Shown here one piece after another: positions 2,674 to 28,524 of a DNA stretch of 28,628 bases; within the stretch, counting starts at the first letter, position 1; the number at the start of each line of letters is the position of its first letter. Made by a program: the position numbers and the translations under genes. The notes under the pieces are model-generated. The model was given only the letters and a program-made list of their open reading frames with translations, made no database searches and had not been told where the DNA came from. Source of the stretch: a virus; IMG/VR virus record IMGVR_UViG_3300021083_000423, positions 1 through 28,628 of that record; one strand, written 5' to 3'.

Positions 2674-4113
2674 TCAGCCCTGCGTCACGGTTATTAGACC
2701 GGAATCGGTCGTGAAGTAGCTTTCCTGCACGGTGCTATTCGGTTCGCCATAGATCAGCGTTCCCGACGCCTCGACGCCGACGCCGTTGATCGAGACCGCG
2801 AACGTCAATTCGGAAATCAGTTGCGTCGACAGAATTCCCGCGACCGCGGTTGCAAATACCGTCTGCATGTCGATGATGTTGAGCGGCTGACCGACGGTCA
2901 GGCCATTGACGTAATCAGCCAAAGCCGCCGAGGCCAATTGCGCAACGGACGCCGGGGACACGACGTTGGTCGAGATCGTGTTCCAGGTGACCGTCATGGC
3001 GACGGTCAAGGCCGGTGGATTGACGAAGATCACGTTGTAGGTATTGGGGAAGTTGTTGATCGATACCGTGATATTACGAAGGTCGGGAATGACGATGCCG
3101 CTGCCGGAATACGTGGCGCCGCCACTCGGGGTGAACGCCACTGTGAATGTCGTCGGCGACACGATGGTCGCCGCATATTCGACGTTGTTGAGATTGGTGA
3201 GATTTCCCGTTCCCTGGATACTCTGCATGACCACGACTTGGCCGGTAACGTAGCCGTGTAATTTGTCGGTTGTGATCAGCGCCGGATAAGCCGAACCGAT
3301 GGAAACGATATTCAGCATCGAACCCTTCAACAGCGAGACATCGCCAACGCCCCTCATGATCGCATAGCCGACCTGATAAGGATCCCCGCCCCCGACGATG
3401 ACTTCCCAGCCGCCGCCGGTTTGCTGCGCCATCGAAACGAGGCGCTGCTGCACGTTCGGCACTTGCGCCAGTTGCGTCTTGGTCAGCGACGGCAAGCCCT
3501 GGCATACGGCCATCAAGGCCTGCAGCACAGATTGCCGATAACCTTCTTCCGTCTGCGCCGCCCCGCCCGGCGTTCCCGCGGTCGGATTATCGACCGACAA
3601 TGTGATGGACGAGGGATAGGACGATATGATCTGCGTGACCGTCCTGGACGGAACACCCCAACTCCCTGTCTGCGTCGCAACCGCATAGAGCGGCAATGAT
3701 TGTCCGCCGGCCCCGATGACGCCGCCATTCTGGACGATGTACTGATAGACGCCGTCGGAAACGACCAAGTTCTGATTGATGACGAATCCGACCGTTCCGG
3801 AAAACACCACATAGACGCTGGTGTTGGTGGCCCCGGCCTGCGGAACGCCGGTCATCGCGCCGTACTGCGTCAATATCCATTCATTGGCGGAATACGGCGA
3901 GATCGAATCAAGCGTTTCGATTCTCGCCTGATCGATCAGCGACAGGCCGCCGAGCTGCGTATCGAGCAAATCCTCGATCAAAGAGGCCGGGAGATTCGCC
4001 GTATAGTTCGGATTGGTCGGGGTGACGCCGTTGATCAGCGTCGCCCGCAACGTTGAAACCGGCGTCGGTTGCGGCCCGGCCGCCGTCACGACAACCGGGA
4101 TATCCGTCGCCAT
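2674..4113 (-). CDS. Baseplate J-like protein with inserted beta-rich module
   Basis: This 479-aa protein is a baseplate wedge component like P2 gpJ and T4 gp6. Evidence is the N-terminal LPASLIEDLLDTQ region, the core ending TPGGAAQTEEGYRQSVLQAL (residues 181-200), and the C-terminal VSINNFPNTYNVIFVNPPA segment after residue 350. Residues about 271-343 (ALITTDKLHGYVTGQ...SPTTFTVAFTPSGGATYSG) interrupt the core and resemble the HG...N...TTF module also found in the sheath, in the 161-aa tail protein and after the amber codon in the decoration protein. A GAGG sequence 6 nt before ATG supports the start. The gp25-like gene lies 8 nt upstream and DUF2612 directly downstream, the usual order for this module. 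Confidence 0.92.
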   Translation of the reverse strand: MATDIPVVVTAAGPQPTPVSTLRATLINGVTPTNPNYTANLPASLIEDLLDTQLGGLSLIDQARIETLDSISPYSANEWILTQYGAMTGVPQAGATNTSVYVVFSGTVGFVINQNLVVSDGVYQYIVQNGGVIGAGGQSLPLYAVATQTGSWGVPSRTVTQIISSYPSSITLSVDNPTAGTPGGAAQTEEGYRQSVLQALMAVCQGLPSLTKTQLAQVPNVQQRLVSMAQQTGGGWEVIVGGGDPYQVGYAIMRGVGDVSLLKGSMLNIVSIGSAYPALITTDKLHGYVTGQVVVMQSIQGTGNLTNLNNVEYAATIVSPTTFTVAFTPSGGATYSGSGIVIPDLRNITVSINNFPNTYNVIFVNPPALTVAMTVTWNTISTNVVSPASVAQLASAALADYVNGLTVGQPLNIIDMQTVFATAVAGILSTQLISELTFAVSINGVGVEASGTLIYGEPNSTVQESYFTTDSGLITVTQG

Positions 4114-6159: not shown

Positions 6160-6645
6160 CTACGGATTGACCTCAAACTGTCCATTCCGAAACGCCAGCG
6201 TCGAGGTCGTGAAATACCCCGCGACAAGATTAACGATCCAATCGACGATCCCGACCGTCGTCACCGCAGCCGGCGGCTGGATCAACGGATAGGTCAGCGT
6301 CATCTCATCAACGACCAACGCCAGCACATTGCCGTTATAGGCCGTGGGATTACATCCGCTGATCAGAACAGCAACCGTGAGCCATTGCTGATAGTCGTGC
6401 GGGGTTGCCGTCGTTAGCGTCACCGTGCCGTTGGCCCACGAAACTGATGCGATCGGAATGCTCGGCGGCGACGACACCAGAGGGATTGTCACGACCGGCG
6501 TGCCGTCAAGCGCCGTAATGACCGCATAGTTGCGCTGGCCGTACAAGTTCCACGGCACCGTCACCAGATAGATATTACCGTCGAACGTCGGCTGAAACGA
6601 GAATGGCGCCGACGGCGAGGGAACGTAGGGATAATAGGTCGTCAC
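6160..6645 (-). CDS. Small baseplate/tail protein with inserted module
   Basis: This 161-aa protein starts with GTG that overlaps the upstream stop as GTGA, a coupling arrangement. Residues 13-60 (APFSFQPTFDGNIYLVTVPWN, NLYGQRNYAVITALDG...TIPLVSSPP) and the last 30 residues look like a ~100-aa tail protein of Bcep781-type phages (WNxxGQRxY signature). Residues about 65-131 (IASVSWANGTVTLTTATPHD ... NPTAYNGN) separate the two halves and match the W-S/A...HG/HD...YNG module found twice in the sheath. The protein is probably a hub-associated baseplate component. Function is inferred from its place between the tape measure and hub genes. Confidence 0.7.
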   Translation of the reverse strand: MTTYYPYVPSPSAPFSFQPTFDGNIYLVTVPWNLYGQRNYAVITALDGTPVVTIPLVSSPPSIPIASVSWANGTVTLTTATPHDYQQWLTVAVLISGCNPTAYNGNVLALVVDEMTLTYPLIQPPAAVTTVGIVDWIVNLVAGYFTTSTLAFRNGQFEVNP

Positions 6646-7402: not shown

Positions 7403-9163
7403 TTACGGCAACGGCCAAGACACCCCTGTGCCGTACGTGGCAAGTTGCTGCATCGATACGTTCACGTCGGCGCCGGTCGCCTTGGTGATTTCGACCTTTG
7501 GAGTCCGCTCGCGTTCATAACCCTTGCTCAATTCGAAGTGCCCGAAGTCGGGTTTGCCACGGAAGTCGCCGCCGGATTTGATCCCATACTGCGCTTCGAT
7601 CTTGCGCAGCAGATCCGCATGCGTCTGCGCCCACGCCCGGAATTCCTTGGTCACCACATCACGCGCCGATTGATCCACATCGATCGCGCGGCCGAAGGCG
7701 TGCTGGCTCCACACCGGCGTTCCCGAAATCTTGCGGGGATTATATCCCCCCAGCGACGTGATCGGCGCGCCGGCGGCTTCCATTGCATCAAGGAAGCCCT
7801 TGAACCTATCGGCACCGGAGGCACTGACGGTGACCTTGTGCCCGCCCACCGTGGTAATGGTGGTGAGCGGGCTGCCTGTGATATCAGACCCGGGCTTATT
7901 GGAGAGGATGTCCGTCAATTGGCTCCATGCCGATTTACCTTGAGCGCGTTCCGCGCGCAATTCGGCGGCGGTCTTGACGCCCATATCGTGCAGATTGTTG
8001 GTGCGCTCCGCTTCGCGCCTCGAACCGAAGGAGTCGGCGAACCATGACAACACGTTGCCGAGCGCCCGCACCAATTGATCCATATCGTCGACGAACGTCT
8101 TGACGTTCTGATCGAATTCCGGCGTCGCCACATAGGACGCGAAGCGCTCCAGCGCTCCGGATATCTGTTCGATCCAGTGTTTGTCGTTTCCGGCCTGAAG
8201 AAACGCCGCGACGACATGCGAGACGGAATCGGACAAGTGAGCGAGCGGGCCAGTCAATGGTTCCAAGCCCTGCACGAATACCTTAAAGATCGAATTTCCC
8301 GCCCGATCGAGTTGCGTTGTGAATTCCTGGTAGGCCCGTGTTGTGCCTGGATCGAGCTCGAACCGCCCCACGTCGGATCGATATGCCCCTTCCTGCCGCT
8401 TACGTTCCTCCGGCGAGGCCGAAAGGTAGCGCCTGATATCCTCCACCGAGAGGATATTCGTGAGCCCATAGGCCTCGGCGACCGTGCCGAGATTCTGCTG
8501 CTTCGCCCCACCCGGAAATAGCCGCGGCAACGCTTGTAAGAGCTGGGATGACACATCCGCCGCATTCCGCCCCTGGACGTTGCCCAGAAGCGCAGCGATA
8601 GGCCTATAAGCCGGAGAGGTCGGATCACTCAGGGCCGCGGCAACCGCGCTCAGCGTGCCCTGTGGGCTCGCCAGGAACCGACCGAAGTCAACCCCGAACG
8701 CCGTCCCCTGCCCTGGCGTAATCCCGAATCCCGCCGCCGACTGCCGCATGGCGGCGACCGACCCGGCGAGATGCGTGAAGCCCCAGAGACTCCCACCCCC
8801 CAAGAGGCCGGTGAACAGTGTCGTCAGCCCGGTCCACTTGACGAACGACCGCGTCATCGACGCGACGTTGCCGGCGACCTCCTTGCTGTCGCGCGCGATC
8901 GAGTGCCATGACCTGGCCTGACGGTCGGTCTCGGTCGCGCCGCGATGCCCTTCGCTCGCCGTCTTGCGCGCGATATCGTTGTGCGCCAGCATCGCTGCGG
9001 TGACATTGGCGAAGCCGCGCATCAAGCCTTGCTGCTCTGCGCTCGCCGCCTTCCATGCCTCCGGCATCTTTTCCAGTTGCGCCTGGTACTTGTCGAACAG
9101 ATCCTTGAACGCTTTGAATTTAGCGTCATCGACATCGACGGACCAAATCGATTTGGCGACCAT
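7403..9163 (-). CDS. Tail tape measure protein with C-terminal M15-type peptidase
   Basis: This 586-aa protein is the longest tail gene. Residues 10-105 are helical and charged; residues about 112-145 are Gly/Leu/Ala-rich and hydrophobic (LTTLFTGLLGGGSLWGF), the membrane-active kind of segment seen in tape measure proteins; helices continue to about 420. Residues 470-545 form a zinc D,D-peptidase-like domain: GGYNPRKI, then SQHAFGRAIDVD (H488, D495; the SxHxxGxAxD motif) and DFGHFE (H542). These fit the metal and catalytic residues of M15/VanY-like enzymes. The protein would set tail length and cut peptidoglycan during DNA entry. GAGGA about 9 nt before ATG supports the start. It follows the frameshifted chaperone pair, the standard order. 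Confidence 0.9.
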   Translation of the reverse strand: MVAKSIWSVDVDDAKFKAFKDLFDKYQAQLEKMPEAWKAASAEQQGLMRGFANVTAAMLAHNDIARKTASEGHRGATETDRQARSWHSIARDSKEVAGNVASMTRSFVKWTGLTTLFTGLLGGGSLWGFTHLAGSVAAMRQSAAGFGITPGQGTAFGVDFGRFLASPQGTLSAVAAALSDPTSPAYRPIAALLGNVQGRNAADVSSQLLQALPRLFPGGAKQQNLGTVAEAYGLTNILSVEDIRRYLSASPEERKRQEGAYRSDVGRFELDPGTTRAYQEFTTQLDRAGNSIFKVFVQGLEPLTGPLAHLSDSVSHVVAAFLQAGNDKHWIEQISGALERFASYVATPEFDQNVKTFVDDMDQLVRALGNVLSWFADSFGSRREAERTNNLHDMGVKTAAELRAERAQGKSAWSQLTDILSNKPGSDITGSPLTTITTVGGHKVTVSASGADRFKGFLDAMEAAGAPITSLGGYNPRKISGTPVWSQHAFGRAIDVDQSARDVVTKEFRAWAQTHADLLRKIEAQYGIKSGGDFRGKPDFGHFELSKGYERERTPKVEITKATGADVNVSMQQLATYGTGVSWPLP

Positions 9164-10674: not shown

Positions 10675-12309
10675 TTATGCGCCGATCGGAATTTGCACCG
10701 CCATGATATTGACGATGATCTGCTGAAATCCGGTTTGCGGGATGATCGCGACCTGAAACCCTCCGTAGATTCCTAGCTTATAATTTCCTGGATTGGCGCC
10801 GTAATATGTCGCCCACGGCACGGCATTAACGACAGCCTGCCCCGGATATGCGCCATTTTCGATGTTTTGGAGGAACGCCTGCTGTGACAATTCCGTGAGT
10901 GTCAGCGAGCCGAGGATCAGATTGGCACCTATCCCGGTCGACACTGTCTGCGCCAGCACGCCTTGCAGGGCCGTGACGCCGTTCTGATTATTCCACAGCG
11001 TTCCGTTTTGCGATCCGACAATGACCGCATTGGTCACATCGAGATCGCCGTTGATCTGCATCCAATCATAGGCGTACCAGAAATTGAACTGGTTGCCGTC
11101 AAGCGTACGGCCGTTGCGGAGAATCGCCGTGCTGATACCGCCTTCCGATCCAAGTCCGACATAGTTAATGTTCGATGTCAGCAGCGTTGTGAGAAGCGAT
11201 GAATTTCCCTGCAGTGGAAACGGTGTTGCTGCATTCAGATTCGCAAAAGACAGCGACGTAACCGGATTGCTACTGGCTGGATTCCATCCGAGGATGGTCC
11301 ACACTACGCCTGCAAGATCGAATTCCGTAACACCGACACCGCTCGACGCAGCGACCGACGCGACCAGGGTGCCGAGCCCGGTTTCAGATCCCGGATTGGC
11401 GGCGAGAAATGCCACCAGCGTTTCCGCTGTAGTGCCTTCAGCCGCGAGATACCAGCCGTTATATCCCGTCGGCGTACAGCCGGAAATCTGGAACCATTGC
11501 CCCGGCGAAACACCATGCGCCGTCGTCGTGGTCGCCGTCATGAAATTCGCCGACCATGAAATCGCCGTCAAGGCATTGGCGGGCCACACCGCGCTTGCGG
11601 GTGCTTCGATCAACGCCAAAACCGATTTCGGACCAGCCGTCACCCATGCGGGATAGTTCTGCAGGTTGGCCGTCACGCCGAAATAGGTCTTGCCGGTCAC
11701 GCTGGTGAACGTATCGGCAAACGTGATGAATGTGGAATCCCCCGCCCACGTCCGCGGCACCAGATAGATGTAAAAAAACTGCGGCGTGGTGTTGTTGATG
11801 AAGTTCGAAAGCGCCGTGACACCCGCCGACGTACTGCCCGCGCCCAATTCCAGCACATAAACCGCGACCTGTGAACCCATGCCGAAAAACGTGGTGATCT
11901 GCGCCACCAGTTCGCCAACGTCCTCTTCGGTATAGGTGCCGGGCGTGGTTTCCGATCCGGGGTTGCTGGCGAGCGGATAGGTGAAAGTTGACGCTCCTGT
12001 CACCGTGCACGGGAACGACCCGTTGTAAGCCGCCGGTGAAGCGCCGACGATGGTGAGCCACACCGTGCCCGTGAGGCCATGCGGCGAGGTCGCGGTCGCT
12101 GTCACAGTTCCGCCGGACCACGTCAACGACGTAAGCGCTTCCGCGCCTTGTAATACCGATGTCAGATCGGAATACTGCGTGATCAGCTTGTAGGTCTGCG
12201 GCGCAAGCGTCGTCGCACCTTGCGACACGGCAGCTCCGGTCCGCTGCAATGTCGGCGGGGCCGGCGCCGTGAGCACCGACCCATTGACCACAGTGATTGG
12301 ATTGACCAT
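10675..12309 (-). CDS. Contractile tail sheath protein (DUF3383 type) with two inserted modules
   Basis: This 544-aa protein is the sheath that contracts to drive the tube through the envelope. The DUF3383-type core is visible at VVNGSVLTAPAPPTLQRTGA (N-terminus), VAVYVLELGAG, LLTTLLTSNINYVGLGSEGG, NFWYAYDWMQINGDLDV and the C-terminal YGGFQVAIIPQ. Residues about 58-128 and 246-316 are two copies of the same ~70-aa beta-rich module: W-S near the start (TWSGGTVTATATSPHG, SWSANFMTATTTTAHG), YNG in the middle and NPGSET...GT at the end. They probably project from the sheath surface. GGAG about 10 nt upstream supports the start. The tube gene follows after 14 bp. Confidence 0.9.
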   Translation of the reverse strand: MVNPITVVNGSVLTAPAPPTLQRTGAAVSQGATTLAPQTYKLITQYSDLTSVLQGAEALTSLTWSGGTVTATATSPHGLTGTVWLTIVGASPAAYNGSFPCTVTGASTFTYPLASNPGSETTPGTYTEEDVGELVAQITTFFGMGSQVAVYVLELGAGSTSAGVTALSNFINNTTPQFFYIYLVPRTWAGDSTFITFADTFTSVTGKTYFGVTANLQNYPAWVTAGPKSVLALIEAPASAVWPANALTAISWSANFMTATTTTAHGVSPGQWFQISGCTPTGYNGWYLAAEGTTAETLVAFLAANPGSETGLGTLVASVAASSGVGVTEFDLAGVVWTILGWNPASSNPVTSLSFANLNAATPFPLQGNSSLLTTLLTSNINYVGLGSEGGISTAILRNGRTLDGNQFNFWYAYDWMQINGDLDVTNAVIVGSQNGTLWNNQNGVTALQGVLAQTVSTGIGANLILGSLTLTELSQQAFLQNIENGAYPGQAVVNAVPWATYYGANPGNYKLGIYGGFQVAIIPQTGFQQIIVNIMAVQIPIGA

Positions 12310-17035: not shown

Positions 17036-18058
17036 TTATAGGTACTGCATCGATATGATGCGGATGGCTTCCGGGCGCCAGCCTATGCCCGACGTGATGC
17101 GGATTTCCGAGGTCACGTCGATCGCCCCTTCAGGGAGCGGCACGGGAATTTCCCGCGGCGCCGCCATGTCGCTGTACTGCATGATGCAGCCTTCCAGGCC
17201 CGGCTCGAGCGTAGCGAAGATATTGGTGTTGATCGGCGACCCGGCCGGCTTTTTGACTTCCGGCATGGCGATGATCACGGCGTCGGTGCCGCCGGTGCCG
17301 GCGCCGATCAGCGTATCGTCATAGCCGACCACGAAGGCATCCTGGTTCATTTCCAGGATGTCCTTGACGACGCCCAGGGTGGATTGCGAACCGGCGCCAG
17401 TGCGCTGGAACTGCACGAGCTGGACAATGTCCTGATAGGAGAAGGTGCCGAGCACCCGCTGTGGCCCAACCACGACAATACGCTGCGGAATCCCGAGCTG
17501 ATTAGTCGCCGTTTTGAGCGCCTGAATCTGCCCGGCGAGGAAAAACGACATCTGGCCGGCGTCATAGGTTTCGACCGTGTCGTTGCCGTTCGAATCCGGC
17601 GGCAGTGATACCAGCGTGGCGCCGTTGGTATTGAGAAGCCCCTCGCCATAGGAGGGATTGATGCCCGACAACAGCGCCACGCGGGCAAATTGCGCGTGCG
17701 CCTGGCGCATCGCCAAGCGCTGCGCTTCAACAATCGATACGCCATAACGCGCCGCGGCGGCGGTATCGTGATGGTCGTATTCCGCGCGATTGCGAATGAG
17801 GTATGTCGGCGTCTGCAACTGCGACATGATGATGTCGCACGATGGTAGTTCGTTGAACGGCGCCTGGCCGCCGGAAACCTTGGTCCGCACATCGATGCGA
17901 TTGATGTAGACGTAAAGGTCGCCCTCCGAAAGGCGCACCATGAGGTCGCCGCCGGCGAGCAATTCGAAGGCGCCAGAGGCCTGCGAATAGGGCAGCAACA
18001 GACGCGGTTCGACATAGGACGGGTGGACCCGCGTCACTGCCGGGGCGATCGTGGCCAT
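17036..18058 (-). CDS. Major capsid protein, DUF2184 type
   Basis: This 340-aa protein occupies the capsid place, after protease/scaffold and decoration genes. Visible segments are YVEPRLLLPYSQASGAFELL at residues 15-34, LYVYINRIDVRTKVSGGQAP, a long helix SIVEAQRLAMRQAHAQFARV (spine-helix-like), AGQIQALKTATNQLGIPQRI and the C-terminal IGWRPEAIRIISMQYL. These match the DUF2184 family, whose members adopt the HK97 capsid fold (family knowledge, not computed here). CGGAG about 9 nt before ATG supports the start. The C-terminal IRITSGIGWRP segment is the usual P-domain ending. Hundreds of copies would form the shell. Confidence 0.88.
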   Translation of the reverse strand: MATIAPAVTRVHPSYVEPRLLLPYSQASGAFELLAGGDLMVRLSEGDLYVYINRIDVRTKVSGGQAPFNELPSCDIIMSQLQTPTYLIRNRAEYDHHDTAAAARYGVSIVEAQRLAMRQAHAQFARVALLSGINPSYGEGLLNTNGATLVSLPPDSNGNDTVETYDAGQMSFFLAGQIQALKTATNQLGIPQRIVVVGPQRVLGTFSYQDIVQLVQFQRTGAGSQSTLGVVKDILEMNQDAFVVGYDDTLIGAGTGGTDAVIIAMPEVKKPAGSPINTNIFATLEPGLEGCIMQYSDMAAPREIPVPLPEGAIDVTSEIRITSGIGWRPEAIRIISMQYL

Positions 18059-18098: not shown

Positions 18099-18494
18099 TC
18101 AGATTTGCGCGACGGCGACCGAGCCGGACCGGTTCCAGGTATAAAATCCGGTTGTCGCGCTGTAGGACACGGTCATGGAATTCCCGACCTGGACTTCCAG
18201 GATGCTGATCGGGAGGATGCCGCCGCCGGTCACGCCGCGACCGATCGCGCCGCCGCCGGGATTGAGCAGGCCACCGGAGGAATAGGTACCGGGATTGTTG
18301 GCGGAGCCGGCGGCACCCTGATAGGTCAAGGTCGTGCTCGTGGTCCCAGCAGCCGCCGTGAACGAACCGTTGTAGCCGTTCGGCACATTGGCGCCGGCAC
18401 CGGTCGACACGATCCCCGACACGGTGAAATCATCCCCCACCGCGAGTTCGCCGCCGGTCGTGAGGGTCAGTGTTACAAGGCCCGTGGTCGAGTT
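18099..18494 (-). CDS. Decoration-protein continuation after in-frame amber codon
   Basis: The frame continues from the upstream decoration gene after the TAG at 18495-18497 with no shift. It encodes 131 codons (NSTTGLVTLTL ... SVAVAQI) up to TGA at 18099-18101. The only independent start candidate is GTG at 18440, which lacks a Shine-Dalgarno sequence and would cut the domain. Residues just after TAG form the beta-rich module seen in the sheath, with GYNGSFTAAAG and NNPGTYSSGG. The end (GNSMTVSYSATTGFYTWNRS) looks like an intact C-terminal domain. Other module copies have Trp at the TAG position, so TGG to TAG is the likely change. The product exists only with amber suppression or readthrough, otherwise this is a broken 3' half. 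Confidence 0.65.
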   Translation of the reverse strand, partial: NSTTGLVTLTLTTGGELAVGDDFTVSGIVSTGAGANVPNGYNGSFTAAAGTTSTTLTYQGAAGSANNPGTYSSGGLLNPGGGAIGRGVTGGGILPISILEVQVGNSMTVSYSATTGFYTWNRSGSVAVAQI

Positions 18495-18497
18495 CTA
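18495..18497 (-). other. In-frame TAG at conserved Trp position
   Basis: The minus strand reads GCC AGC TAG AAC TCG. In the sheath copies of the module the aligned residues are LTW-S and ISW-S, and in the 161-aa tail protein VSW-A, so TAG stands where TGG is expected (one G to A change). Confidence 0.7.
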
Positions 18498-19046
18498 GCT
18501 GGCCCCCGTGATGACATCCTGGCTGTACGCCGCGACGTAGGGAATGAGCCGCTGGTTGACGAAATCCCACGTCACCAGAGAGCCGGTGAAATACCCTTCA
18601 AGATCCACCAGTGCGGGGTCGATCGCCAAGGGAATGCGCGCCTTGGACCCGAGCGGGTAATAGTTGACCTGCATTCCTGATGCCGCAAGCGGCACTGGCG
18701 ATTGCGGCGACATGATCATCGCCATGTTTTGATCGAACACGGAGAAACCCGAGAGCAGACCAGCCGCTTGCTGCCCAGAGGTCGCCGGCCCAACCTTGGT
18801 CGCGAGCGACACCACAGGTCCCAACACCGCATTCGGCTGACCCGTGCCGCCGGGCACCACGTCGGAAATTCCGCAGCCGCCATACATCGGCAAAGTCGCC
18901 GCGGTGGACAGCGTCCCGCCGCGCATCCGAAACCGCGCTACCGGATCATCGATGGCGCAGCCCTGAATAAAGCCGGCGCTGGTGATGTTGAACGAGCCCG
19001 GCGCATTGACCGTCGGCAATGGATTGAAGGGAGCAAGAGCGGCCAT
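18495..19046 (-). CDS. Head decoration/structural protein, truncated by amber stop
   Basis: From ATG at 19046 (AAGGAA, 8 nt spacing) to TAG at 18495-18497 the product is 183 aa: MAALAPFNPLPTVNAPGSFN, MRGGTLSTAATLPMYGGCGI, SGFSVFDQNMAMIMSPQSPV and VTWDFVNQRLIPYVAAYSQD. This type of protein lies between scaffold and capsid genes in DUF2184-capsid phages and is likely a capsid-associated decoration or cement protein. It ends abruptly at ITGAS just where a conserved Trp and a beta-rich module would follow, and the same frame continues for 131 codons. Full length would be 315 aa. The truncated form may still work if the module is only a surface decoration. Confidence 0.8.
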   Translation of the reverse strand: MAALAPFNPLPTVNAPGSFNITSAGFIQGCAIDDPVARFRMRGGTLSTAATLPMYGGCGISDVVPGGTGQPNAVLGPVVSLATKVGPATSGQQAAGLLSGFSVFDQNMAMIMSPQSPVPLAASGMQVNYYPLGSKARIPLAIDPALVDLEGYFTGSLVTWDFVNQRLIPYVAAYSQDVITGAS

Positions 19047-19084
19047 AATGGCGGTTCCTTGTTTGAGTCAGGGTGTTGTGGGGT

Positions 19085-20017
19085 TTACCGGGCGCCGCGC
19101 GGCGCCGCGTTGAGCTGCCGAACCTGCGTCGGTGGCTTCATCGCGCCAATGAAGGTGCCGCCGCCCGATACGAACTCATAGAACGGCAGGCCGGTGACAG
19201 GATTAGTACGCTTGACGGTTCGGAGTTCTCCGGCACCCAGATCGCTCGGGCGCGCCGCGGCCGCGATGGCGTCGGCATAGATCATGTCCTTGATCTGACC
19301 GAACGCCGTCGGCTCCGCCGAAAGCTTGACCAGATCGATGTTCTTGCAGCGCTCGGAAAAGCCCTGAAAGTCCCGCAGAATCCGGCGCGCATAGGCCATC
19401 GGCGATTCCGACTGCAGCGGCCCCGGCGCCCGCTTGCCATGGGCCTGATAGACCGCATCGGCGCGCTGCTGTTCGTTCGCCATCACTTCGTAATCGGCGT
19501 CCGACATGAGCTTGGGGATGGCGGACTCGACCCGCGACAAACGCTCGAGCATTGCAGGATCGCTGTCGGCGCGAGCATCGGCCTTGGTGTTGGTCGCCGC
19601 AACCGGAGCCGAGACCTGAGCCGCGAGCGAAGCCGCGTCCTTGCGGGCCTTGTCCGCCTTGCGCTCTTCCTCGTCCTTGTCTTCGGCGTCCTTGCGGGCC
19701 TTCTTGGCCTTGTCGGCCGCCAGTTCTTTCGCCTCGCCGGCTTCCTCCCAGTCGCACTTGAGCTTGTCTTCTTCGGCGTCGTGACGCTTCTTGTAGGACT
19801 CTTCGTCCTCGGCGTCGCCGCGCTTGGAGAAGGCGTGGCTGTCAGCGCGCTTCTTCGCATCGGCCTTTTTCATTTCGCCTTCGGCGTCGGCGCGGCGCTT
19901 CTTGTCCGCCTTCATTTCCTCTTCCATCGCATCGAGACGCGCATCGAAGCGCTTGCCCATCCTGTCGAGCGCCGCCAAAATCTTGTCCGGCACCACGCCT
20001 TCGCTACCTTCGGCCAT
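19085..20017 (-). CDS. Internal in-frame start: free scaffold protein
   Basis: Inside the polyprotein, ATG at 20017 (Met486) is preceded by AGAGGAG with 8-nt spacing. That is one of the best ribosome binding sites in the window, and it lies exactly between the DUF2213 domain and the coiled-coil region. Translation from here gives a 310-aa protein (MAEGSEGVVPDKILAALDRM ...) made only of the scaffold part. Lambda uses the same design: protease C and scaffold Nu3 share a reading frame, with Nu3 starting internally and made in excess. The ribosome binding site is seen directly; that it is used is inference. Confidence 0.6.
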   Translation of the reverse strand: MAEGSEGVVPDKILAALDRMGKRFDARLDAMEEEMKADKKRRADAEGEMKKADAKKRADSHAFSKRGDAEDEESYKKRHDAEEDKLKCDWEEAGEAKELAADKAKKARKDAEDKDEEERKADKARKDAASLAAQVSAPVAATNTKADARADSDPAMLERLSRVESAIPKLMSDADYEVMANEQQRADAVYQAHGKRAPGPLQSESPMAYARRILRDFQGFSERCKNIDLVKLSAEPTAFGQIKDMIYADAIAAAARPSDLGAGELRTVKRTNPVTGLPFYEFVSGGGTFIGAMKPPTQVRQLNAAPRGAR

Positions 20018-21472
20018 CACAGAATCTCCTCTCGTTTCGGCGCGCACGCCGGATGGTTCTTGACCTTTGTCCCATACACCGGCCGCGCAGACGGCCAAAT
20101 GATCGACAAGTTTTGGTTCGTCTTCGACCAACAGACTTGACGTTTTACCGTCGATTTCGATTGCGCCTGTAAGCGATGCGCTCGCTTTGACGCCTGGCGA
20201 TGTTGATAGTTGCGTCTTCGCCATTTGGACGGCGGCCGGCTGATCTAAAATCTTGGCGATGCCCCAGACTTCATCGCCTTTGATATACGGTAGAAAAATC
20301 GAGCCGATATTCCGCTCGGCGTATTCCTTGCTGTCGAGCATAGTCGACGGCGGATGTTCCCAGATCACCGGAAGTCCATTGCAGCGGGCAACGAATTCTT
20401 CGGTCAGGAACGCCTCCGGCTTGCGGATGACGTATTCGTTATGTTTCGACCGGAACGCCGCGCCGGTTCCGGTAATACGCAAATCGAACAGCCAGAGATT
20501 TTCGTACTGCTGCGGCGAGGTGAGATCGCCCGCCATCATCATCCGCGCGATTGCCAGTTCGTCGGCACCGAACCGGCTCAGAGCGACCCGACAACCGGGA
20601 TGCAACGGTTCGGGGGGAGAATTGATCGGCGCCCACGCAAACGCGCAGTGCTCGTCATTGAGCTTGGGAATGAACTGCTCGACACCCCGGAACACGAACG
20701 TCGTGAAATCGCACTGTTCGGGCGGCGGCGCCGGCACCAATATCGCCGCATCTAGCCTCGTTCTTTTTTTAAAGTTAGCCGCCGTGTCATCCGCCCGTTC
20801 GGCCGATTCGGCCTGGGGCGATTTGCTATGGCGCACCATTTCCGGTTCACCATTGCGTTCGCTCCCCGTCAGTACATACCCTAATTTCTTGTAGTAATTT
20901 ACCAGCCCCGGATTATTGATGACATCGGCCTCTAAACGCAGATCAACCCCAAGATCATCTGCGATCTTATTGAGACGATTAAGAACGCTATATCCAGCGC
21001 CTTTCTCTCCGTTATTCTCGATCCATGAAATATGGACCTCCGCATCACCCTCCTTATTTACGCGCGCTTCGACGCCGAAATCGACCTTAAGATTTTTTGC
21101 CTCTTCTTTTAGAGGATTTAGTTGTTGCCTTACCTCATGTACCGACGTCTCCCTTGGAGGAGATGCGCCCGTTTTCTCGCTCTTTGTGAATTTACCGTCG
21201 TTGTCGCGCGGGTGATCGCTCTCAAATGCCGCGTCGTCCGCTCGACCGATAGGATCGGCGGCAATACGCCTGGTCCAAAGAGTTAGTTCATTGTCGAGGT
21301 TCCAACCAGTCTCCTCTTGGAATTCGCGTTTGGCTGCATCGATGGCCGATTCGCCGTCTTCGATCTTACCGCCGGGAAAACACCACTCCCCGACATGATC
21401 GCCCGCCGGGCCCCGTTTGAGAAACAGCGCCTTATTCCCGGCAATATAGACGACGCCAGCCGCGCGGATCAT
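19085..21472 (-). CDS. Nudix-DUF2213-scaffold polyprotein with inserted GNAT-like domain
   Basis: This 795-aa head-assembly protein is longer than usual for its family. Residues 1-70 are the first half of a Nudix domain with a perfect Nudix box (GKIEDGE...REFQEETGW, residues 35-57). Residues about 72-253 are an insertion: a linker with SDHPRDNDGKFT, then a GNAT-like core (GEKGAGYSVLNRL, LRLEADVINNPGLVNYYKKL, GYVLTG). The Nudix domain resumes at CDFTTFVFRGVEQF and LNDEHCAFAW, and runs into the DUF2213 segment (residues about 325-475, LFDLRITGTGAAF, NGLPVIWEHP, DHLAVCAAGVWD), thought to be the capsid protease. Residues 500-640 are a Lys/Glu/Asp/Ala coiled coil typical of scaffolds, and 650-795 a C-terminal domain. 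GGAG 10 nt upstream supports ATG 21472. Confidence 0.88.
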   Translation of the reverse strand: MIRAAGVVYIAGNKALFLKRGPAGDHVGEWCFPGGKIEDGESAIDAAKREFQEETGWNLDNELTLWTRRIAADPIGRADDAAFESDHPRDNDGKFTKSEKTGASPPRETSVHEVRQQLNPLKEEAKNLKVDFGVEARVNKEGDAEVHISWIENNGEKGAGYSVLNRLNKIADDLGVDLRLEADVINNPGLVNYYKKLGYVLTGSERNGEPEMVRHSKSPQAESAERADDTAANFKKRTRLDAAILVPAPPPEQCDFTTFVFRGVEQFIPKLNDEHCAFAWAPINSPPEPLHPGCRVALSRFGADELAIARMMMAGDLTSPQQYENLWLFDLRITGTGAAFRSKHNEYVIRKPEAFLTEEFVARCNGLPVIWEHPPSTMLDSKEYAERNIGSIFLPYIKGDEVWGIAKILDQPAAVQMAKTQLSTSPGVKASASLTGAIEIDGKTSSLLVEDEPKLVDHLAVCAAGVWDKGQEPSGVRAETRGDSVMAEGSEGVVPDKILAALDRMGKRFDARLDAMEEEMKADKKRRADAEGEMKKADAKKRADSHAFSKRGDAEDEESYKKRHDAEEDKLKCDWEEAGEAKELAADKAKKARKDAEDKDEEERKADKARKDAASLAAQVSAPVAATNTKADARADSDPAMLERLSRVESAIPKLMSDADYEVMANEQQRADAVYQAHGKRAPGPLQSESPMAYARRILRDFQGFSERCKNIDLVKLSAEPTAFGQIKDMIYADAIAAAARPSDLGAGELRTVKRTNPVTGLPFYEFVSGGGTFIGAMKPPTQVRQLNAAPRGAR
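20781..20797. repeat. Imperfect direct repeat at left edge of inserted domain
   Basis: On the minus strand CGGGCGGATGACACGGC (codes ERADDTA in part), matching 21228-21244 (CGAGCGGACGACGCGGC) at 14 of 17 bases. The pair brackets the low-G+C GNAT-like insertion. Confidence 0.45.
21228..21244. repeat. Imperfect direct repeat at right edge of inserted domain
   Basis: On the minus strand CGAGCGGACGACGCGGC (codes RADDAA), the partner of 20781-20797. It lies a few codons after the Nudix box half ends. Confidence 0.45.
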
Positions 21473-27306: not shown

Positions 27307-28524
27307 TCACCCTGTCTTGGCCTGTGCGTGTTGGTCCTGTTCGGTTGTGGTGTCGGGAGGGCCGGTGGATGAGAGGGTGCCGTCTTTGCGGGGAGGCCAG
27401 CCATTGGTACCGCGTGGTACGATGAGCCCGCTTTCCTTGACCGGCCAATCATCAACGAAACGCTGTGGCGTGATCTCCTGGCGCTTGTAGCCGACGACGA
27501 TCGGGCGCGGTTCGATATTGAGAAATTGCTTCCAGGCACCGCACTGCTGCGTGCCCGCCTTGATCACCAGATAGGTTTTCGGATCGTCATCAGAGAACTG
27601 CGCGAGCGCCAACGCCGCAGCTGTGAGCGGCTGGGGGAATCTCATCCCCCGGCCTTCCGCGAGGCCCATGGCTTGCGGCGGCCGTAAGCCGCAAATCGTC
27701 GCGATCACGCACCTTGCCTGCCATGACGGCAAGCCCTCGGCTTCGAAGACGGCGGTGGTGATCGGCACCACATCCGCCGGTGCGAGCGCAGCAAAGCGGT
27801 CCCATGCATCACGTTCCTTCAGAAATGTCTGCGCGTTGATGACGTTGGGCGGCTTTTTCTGGGCTTTGCGGTGTGCGACGTAGCCCCGCGCGGCTTTGCG
27901 GGCCAACGAGCGTTCGGCTTCCGTGAGCACGTCCCAGACTTGGCGAGCGAGCGATTGGCGTAGGATCGGTTCCTGCCAGTCCAGCTCGAATTCTTCCCAG
28001 CCGTCAGACAGACCGACACCCCCACCCGAAGGGGGGGTAGGGGGGGATTCTTTCTCTTGGTTAAGATGATGGTTATTGTCGCTGCAGTGAGACGACCCCT
28101 GTCGCTCCGGTGAGACTACCCCGTCGCTACCGTGCGACACCCCTGTCTCAGCCTGAGACTGGGGTGGTGATACGTCCTGGTCGATTTCATCGTCTAGGGG
28201 GATGTCTATGCGTTTGATGAATACCTCGAATTGAAGCCTGATTTCAGGTGATGTGCGGCGACGGCCGGAGGCCGCAGCGTTCCATATCTTGCCGTTGTCA
28301 TCGATCCAGCGCGGAAACATCACCAACAGCCCGGATGCTTGCAGCGCATCGAGCCGCCGATAGACAGTCGCTCGTGATTGTTGGCTCTTAGCCGCCATCC
28401 AATCGGCGCCTGGCCACGCCACCCCCTCTTCATTGGCGCTGTCGGCGATGACGTAAAGCAGGCACTGCGCACGGGGATCTCCCGTCGCCTGCTCCATCGC
28501 CCAATTCATGGCTTTAATGCTCAA
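27307..28524 (-). CDS. Winged-helix replication initiator, lambda O-like
   Basis: The start is TTG at 28524, giving MSIKAMNWAMEQATGDPRAQ, with AGGTG 5 nt upstream; the N-terminus matches the usual 'MSxKxMNWxWE' start of such proteins. Residues 5-75 form a winged helix (LLYVIADSANEEGVAWPGAD, RATVYRRLDALQASGLL). Residues about 110-165 are a hydrophilic, Ser/Pro/Gly-rich linker. The C-terminal half (SLARQVWDVLTEAERSLARK ... PQAMGLAEGRGMRFPQPLTA) is helical. Four iterons lie in the linker-coding DNA (28078-28159), as in lambda O, where the protein binds iterons in its own gene. A gene regulator is the alternative. The linker DNA also holds two 7-G tracts. Confidence 0.78.
   Translation of the reverse strand: MSIKAMNWAMEQATGDPRAQCLLYVIADSANEEGVAWPGADWMAAKSQQSRATVYRRLDALQASGLLVMFPRWIDDNGKIWNAAASGRRRTSPEIRLQFEVFIKRIDIPLDDEIDQDVSPPQSQAETGVSHGSDGVVSPERQGSSHCSDNNHHLNQEKESPPTPPSGGGVGLSDGWEEFELDWQEPILRQSLARQVWDVLTEAERSLARKAARGYVAHRKAQKKPPNVINAQTFLKERDAWDRFAALAPADVVPITTAVFEAEGLPSWQARCVIATICGLRPPQAMGLAEGRGMRFPQPLTAAALALAQFSDDDPKTYLVIKAGTQQCGAWKQFLNIEPRPIVVGYKRQEITPQRFVDDWPVKESGLIVPRGTNGWPPRKDGTLSSTGPPDTTTEQDQHAQAKTG
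28031..28046. repeat. Two 7-G homopolymer tracts
   Basis: Seven Gs at 28031-28037 and seven at 28040-28046 separated by TA, inside the linker of the initiator gene (codes SPPTPPSG on the minus strand). Slippage here would shift the frame and remove the C-terminal half. Confidence 0.6.
28047..28159. other. Candidate replication origin with four iterons and AT-rich region
   Basis: Iterons on the plus strand: GTCGCTGCAGTGAGAC (28078-28093), GTCGCTCCGGTGAGAC (28101-28116), GTCGCTACCGTGCGAC (28123-28138) and GTCTCAGCCTGAGAC (28145-28159), with starts 23, 22 and 22 bp apart. The first three are followed by an ACCCC-type tail. Each is itself quasi-palindromic (the last has perfect 7-bp arms). The 31 bp at 28047-28077 next to them are AT-rich (ATTCTTTCTCTTGG...). 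Number, spacing, symmetry, position inside the initiator linker and the AT-rich flank downstream in gene direction all match the lambda origin. Function is inferred. Confidence 0.65.

Follow-up and report, generated by a model that had tools for sequence, protein, structure and literature searches.

The window (the whole stretch of DNA analysed here, 28,628 nucleotides) is a 28.6-kb virus record and represents a fragment; a tandem repeat with a period of 23 and 3.2 copies (28077-28147) is found near the end of this contig. On the minus strand, between two intact neighbours, lies a frame that starts with an ATG (19046-19044), encodes most of the core of a predicted cement protein together with the first strand of an inserted module, and then runs into an amber codon (Table 1). 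An amber-split frame had been described at this place in an earlier note on this DNA, and the description is accurate: the TAG at codon 184 is followed by 131 open codons up to a TGA.

Table 1. Features of the interrupted cement-protein gene and its immediate neighbours
Feature	Position	Strand	Remarks
Major capsid protein gene, intact, directly downstream	17036..18058	-	PF09950, PHROG 6671
TGA, family-typical gene end	18099..18101	-	By comparison with relatives
C-terminal core, residues 277-315	18102..18218	-	Two long beta strands (predicted); kept with or without the module
Continuation, residues 185-315	18102..18494	-	Rest of the module and family-conserved C-terminus
Inserted module, residues ~171-266	18249..18536	-	From the predicted fold
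In-frame TAG (amber), codon 184	18495..18497	-	W, Y, S or other residues in the column of the relatives
Upstream part of the cement-protein gene	18498..19046	-	Residues 1-183; PHROG 6268 match, E 4.6e-38
Shine-Dalgarno-like AAGGA	19056..19060	-	5' of the ATG; putative, read from the sequence
NUDIX-headed gene, probable protease/scaffold, intact, directly upstream	19085..21472	-	PHROG 6216

The two parts of the frame belong together. Residues 6-314 of the read-through protein match PHROG 6268 (E 1e-42, profile positions 5-210 of 211), a single family that spans both sides of the stop. Each part alone matches it too, the continuation with an E value of 2.3e-7 over its residues 89-130. Pfam has no model for this cement protein. 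The best explanation is that the frame is one gene for a predicted capsid cement (decoration) protein of roughly 315 residues; the PHROG 6268 match, the predicted fold of the core and the adjacent major capsid gene all support the decoration role assigned in the earlier note, and the reach of the family across both parts supports its reading of a single gene interrupted by one amber codon.

Pantoea phage PdC23 is annotated with the same gene order, which recurs in phages of Yersinia, Klebsiella, Escherichia and Shewanella, and a NUDIX-headed gene occupies the same position in L003 and L006. In Pantoea PdC23, Yersinia 29.18 and Klebsiella RothD a single CDS lies just before the capsid gene. The PHROG 6268 relatives from PdC23, Yersinia 29.18, Klebsiella RothC and RothD, and Chronis resemble the window protein in full-length homology, gene order, possession of the inserted module and length (286-290 amino acids); they differ from it in that each is encoded by one unbroken frame, the internal stop being confined to the window. 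The public labels on these relatives are either 'endosialidase' or 'hypothetical'. The former, carried by the public records of PdC23 and Yersinia 06.16-1 and bearing on L003 (3001-3873) and other PHROG 6268 members, probably stems from the inserted module and its resemblance to the stalk domain of the phi92 and K1F endosialidases.

An AlphaFold model of the full read-through protein (alignment of 41 sequences) has a mean pLDDT of 82. When the core of this model is compared with the capsid chains of FCWL1, T1 and Pam3 by VIA-align, Z scores of 12-13 are obtained over model residues 13-22 to 315; Foldseek alone gave no match with an E value below 0.001. The match to the cement proteins of T1 (gp49), FCWL1 and cyanophage Pam3 covers the solved chains over nearly their full extent, but at an identity of only 12-14%. 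T1 gp49 has a beta-tulip fold and forms heterotrimers that include the longer gp48 (PMC11945409). The core of the window protein is likewise predicted to be beta-tulip-like, and it would sit on the capsid. Whereas the extra part of T1 gp48 is a C-terminal extension, the extra module of the window protein is predicted to lie inside the core.

The best matches of this module (residues ~171-266), with Z scores of ~8-10, are what we take to be the FCCH domain of the ubiquitin E1 enzyme and the stalk of the endosialidases of phages phi92 and K1F, although the protein context in the window gene is different. A search of solved structures by sequence returned weak matches to the module only (phi92 endosialidase, 4hiz, E 0.5). 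L006 and L007, two shorter relatives, lack the module. Since the module-less relatives Rac-SA53 and vB_Sb_QDWS still keep the C-terminal segment, that segment belongs to the core. FCCH-like modules are also present elsewhere in the window: a tail-region protein (10675-12309) has two further copies, which start near residues 64 and 252, a 161-amino-acid protein (6160-6645) has one near its residue 70, and a baseplate-like protein (2674-4113) may have a weak one near residue 275. In another tail-region protein (7403-9163) the C-terminal segment resembles endolysins (PHROG 1768, E 1.2e-7), which suggests a tail-borne peptidase.

In the model of the full-length protein, the first strand of the module spans residues 177-184 and the stop falls at its end, while two long, confidently predicted core strands (281-295 and 302-314) are encoded 3' of it. 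The model of the 183-residue product has a mean pLDDT of 70 vs 82, no residue at or above 90 vs 125, and lacks the strands 111-121, 137-142 and 172-183, a weak test since the alignment depths differ and AlphaFold is not a stability assay. Without the remainder of the module and the final two strands of the core, the 183-residue product is, as modelled, not a complete cement protein, in contrast to the Q-beta coat protein and T1 gp49.

These features bear on one of the proposals of the earlier note, namely that read-through is deliberate and gives a minor extended decoration protein, as in Q-beta A1; the capsid would then take up this form together with a major one of 183 residues. A short frame followed by an in-phase Ig-like extension in a capsid protein does resemble, superficially, the layout of extended coat proteins. 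T3 and A2 are among the phages in which frameshifting produces Ig-like extensions of coat proteins, as C-terminal additions (PMC5009743), and T1 mixes short gp49 with long gp48 cement subunits (PMC11945409). In Q-beta, as in the window, one capsid frame carries a stop and an in-phase continuation. However, the leaky UGA of Q-beta follows a complete coat protein (PMC8067240), whereas the UAG of the window interrupts a domain and is not conserved: it recurs in no other member of a set of 137 distinct full-length sequences. Moreover, the module is in the relatives an obligatory in-line insertion rather than an optional tail, the stop comes at the end of its first strand with the last two core strands still to follow, and the short product is modelled at reduced confidence with several core strands gone. 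In pseudoknot-free folding, the RNA after the stop does no better than shuffled sequences (z = 0.8). With no relative sharing the stop, a domain interrupted and a short product that is incomplete, the proposal finds no support and programmed read-through appears most improbable.

The comparison with relatives draws on 259 loci of the family from viral-contig scans, genome scans and a phage collection, with a full-span set of 137 distinct sequences (120 at 95% identity). Only in the window does a stop fall within the aligned protein, the other 136 distinct full-span sequences being uninterrupted; the only other sequence flagged, L198, has a stop at the very first aligned residue. The nearest relative, L001, has an intact frame and shares 90% identity in the capsid protein and 65-67% in the cement protein. 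Near-identical contigs were sought by a protein scan, which gave only L001 (65%) as a close relative, and by an exact DNA pattern with the stop codon left open, which had no match. A first genome scan found no relative. A second returned 13 distant copies in bacterial genomes, none of them interrupted. No locus of the family matches in more than one frame, as a frameshift would have it.

A two-gene arrangement, with relatives in which the two parts stand as separate genes, had been named as the finding that would count against a split gene. It was looked for and is rejected, being shown by no relative examined. Restart 3' of the TAG is a related matter. The statement that the continuation has no usable start of its own is a fair one: in-frame GTG and TTG codons are present but lack a convincing ribosome site, and the relatives show no split at this point. 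All other stops in the window that have a gene-like extension are TAA or TGA, and in most of these cases the gene that follows has a start of its own; a second TAG with such an extension is not found in the window. A small gene-like frame (1392-1595; MPLTAKGEEIRTALEKEYGTQRG...) follows, in the same phase, the TAA of 1599-2672. It has its own ATG and is by appearance an ordinary separate gene.

An open frame of 131 codons is expected by chance from base composition alone in ~1% of cases, so that its openness by itself is suggestive only. Read in this frame, the continuation fits the codon usage of the remaining window genes, whereas in either alternative frame it does not (log-odds of 0.47-0.49 bits per codon vs -0.43 and -0.53). 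It is also homologous to the ends of dozens of relatives down to the last residue. Together, the in-frame codon usage and this homology mark it as real coding sequence. Leave-one-out profile scoring places the C-terminal segment close to the median (27th of 61). Low ranks are shared by the module and the N-terminal part (7th and 9th from the bottom), a pattern as might be expected of a somewhat divergent lineage. Relative to L001, dN/dS reaches ~0.55 in the module, compared with ~0.21 before the stop and ~0.28 in the segment after the module; in the other pairs tested, too, dN is highest in the module. In all three segments the distance to outgroups is about equal for the window and the intact L001. 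The claim that a clean frame has been kept after the TAG is thus borne out by gene-like codon usage, a conserved C-terminus and the absence of any sign of decay.

It follows from the undecayed state of the continuation that the stop is recent, suppressed or not real. The lack of decay is the sole basis for a recent origin, and it is equally expected under routine amber suppression. Such suppression supposes that the amber is real and that the natural host, or a tRNA encoded in the missing part of the phage genome, routinely suppresses it so that the full-length protein is made. The contigs of several relatives measure 61-75 kb vs 28.6 kb for the window, and a phage tRNA gene could lie outside the latter. 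However, the suppressor tRNA-CUA suggested earlier is not encoded in the 28.6-kb fragment, which contains no tRNA gene at all, no second gene of the window has an in-frame TAG and none of the relatives shows such a habit. We consider routine suppression unlikely. A more specific version, in which a DNA phage keeps an amber codon in its cement gene and the amount of full-length protein is set, via suppression, by the translation state of the host, is more doubtful still.

An in-frame TAG within a conserved structural gene could also be a sign of a recoded genetic code in which TAG means Gln (table 15). In-frame TAG codons are found in ~40 ORFs of a genuine TAG-recoded phage, which also encodes several suppressor tRNAs (PMC10607447), whereas only one such codon occurs in the ~30 genes of the window. 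Here TAG also terminates at least 3 other predicted genes without a gene-like extension, and Gln is not found at the stop column in the relatives. The probability of recoding is therefore negligible.

As to the residue replaced, the earlier note spoke of a conserved Trp changed by TGG to TAG. W does stand at the corresponding position in three other module copies of the window, against I in a probable fourth, but conservation was overstated. The column in 119 direct relatives contains W in 41, Y in 39, S in 23, A in 6, F in 5, V in 2 and P, G or R in 1 each; L001 has Arg. The codon is one base away from TAG in 49 of 63 relatives (TGG in 23, TAC or TAT in 17, TCG in 9). Of the likely routes to TAG, only the one from TGG is a transition, so that Trp can reasonably be guessed as the ancestral residue; the origin from TGG is nevertheless not uniquely supported, the Tyr and Ser codons being also within one base. 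The sequence just 3' of the stop, NSTTGLVTL, is closest to that of Tyr-type relatives (NNTTGLVTL). In view of this context and of the Arg of L001, Trp is one candidate among several for the ancestral residue.

The gene is unbroken in every relative examined, which makes an ordinary nonsense mutation or an error the most likely source of the stop. Taken as one joint option, as in the earlier note, these are by far the best supported. We thus hold it very probable that the TAG is an isolated nonsense change that serves no programmed purpose. It would either be genuine and of recent date in this phage lineage, or stem from the metagenome consensus, as a base error or a minority variant. According to this proposal, an FCCH/Ig-like module would have been inserted in a loop of a beta-tulip-like core, and a single-base change would have put TAG at codon 184. 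If the mutation is real and unsuppressed, ribosomes would stop after 183 residues, the fragment would probably be unstable or non-functional, and heads would presumably be built with little or no cement protein. Since cement proteins can be dispensable in some phages, such a mutant, if real and unsuppressed, might survive for a while.

As it stands, the window carries a copy of a widespread cement-protein gene that is either broken or mis-read, and it cautions against taking single in-frame stops in metagenome contigs as recoding. Should the amber be both real and suppressed, the phage would offer a natural example of a virion protein whose expression depends on the host. A useful by-product of the analysis is an identity for PHROG 6268, listed there as of unknown function: its members would be T1/Pam3-like cement proteins with an FCCH-like module in the core.
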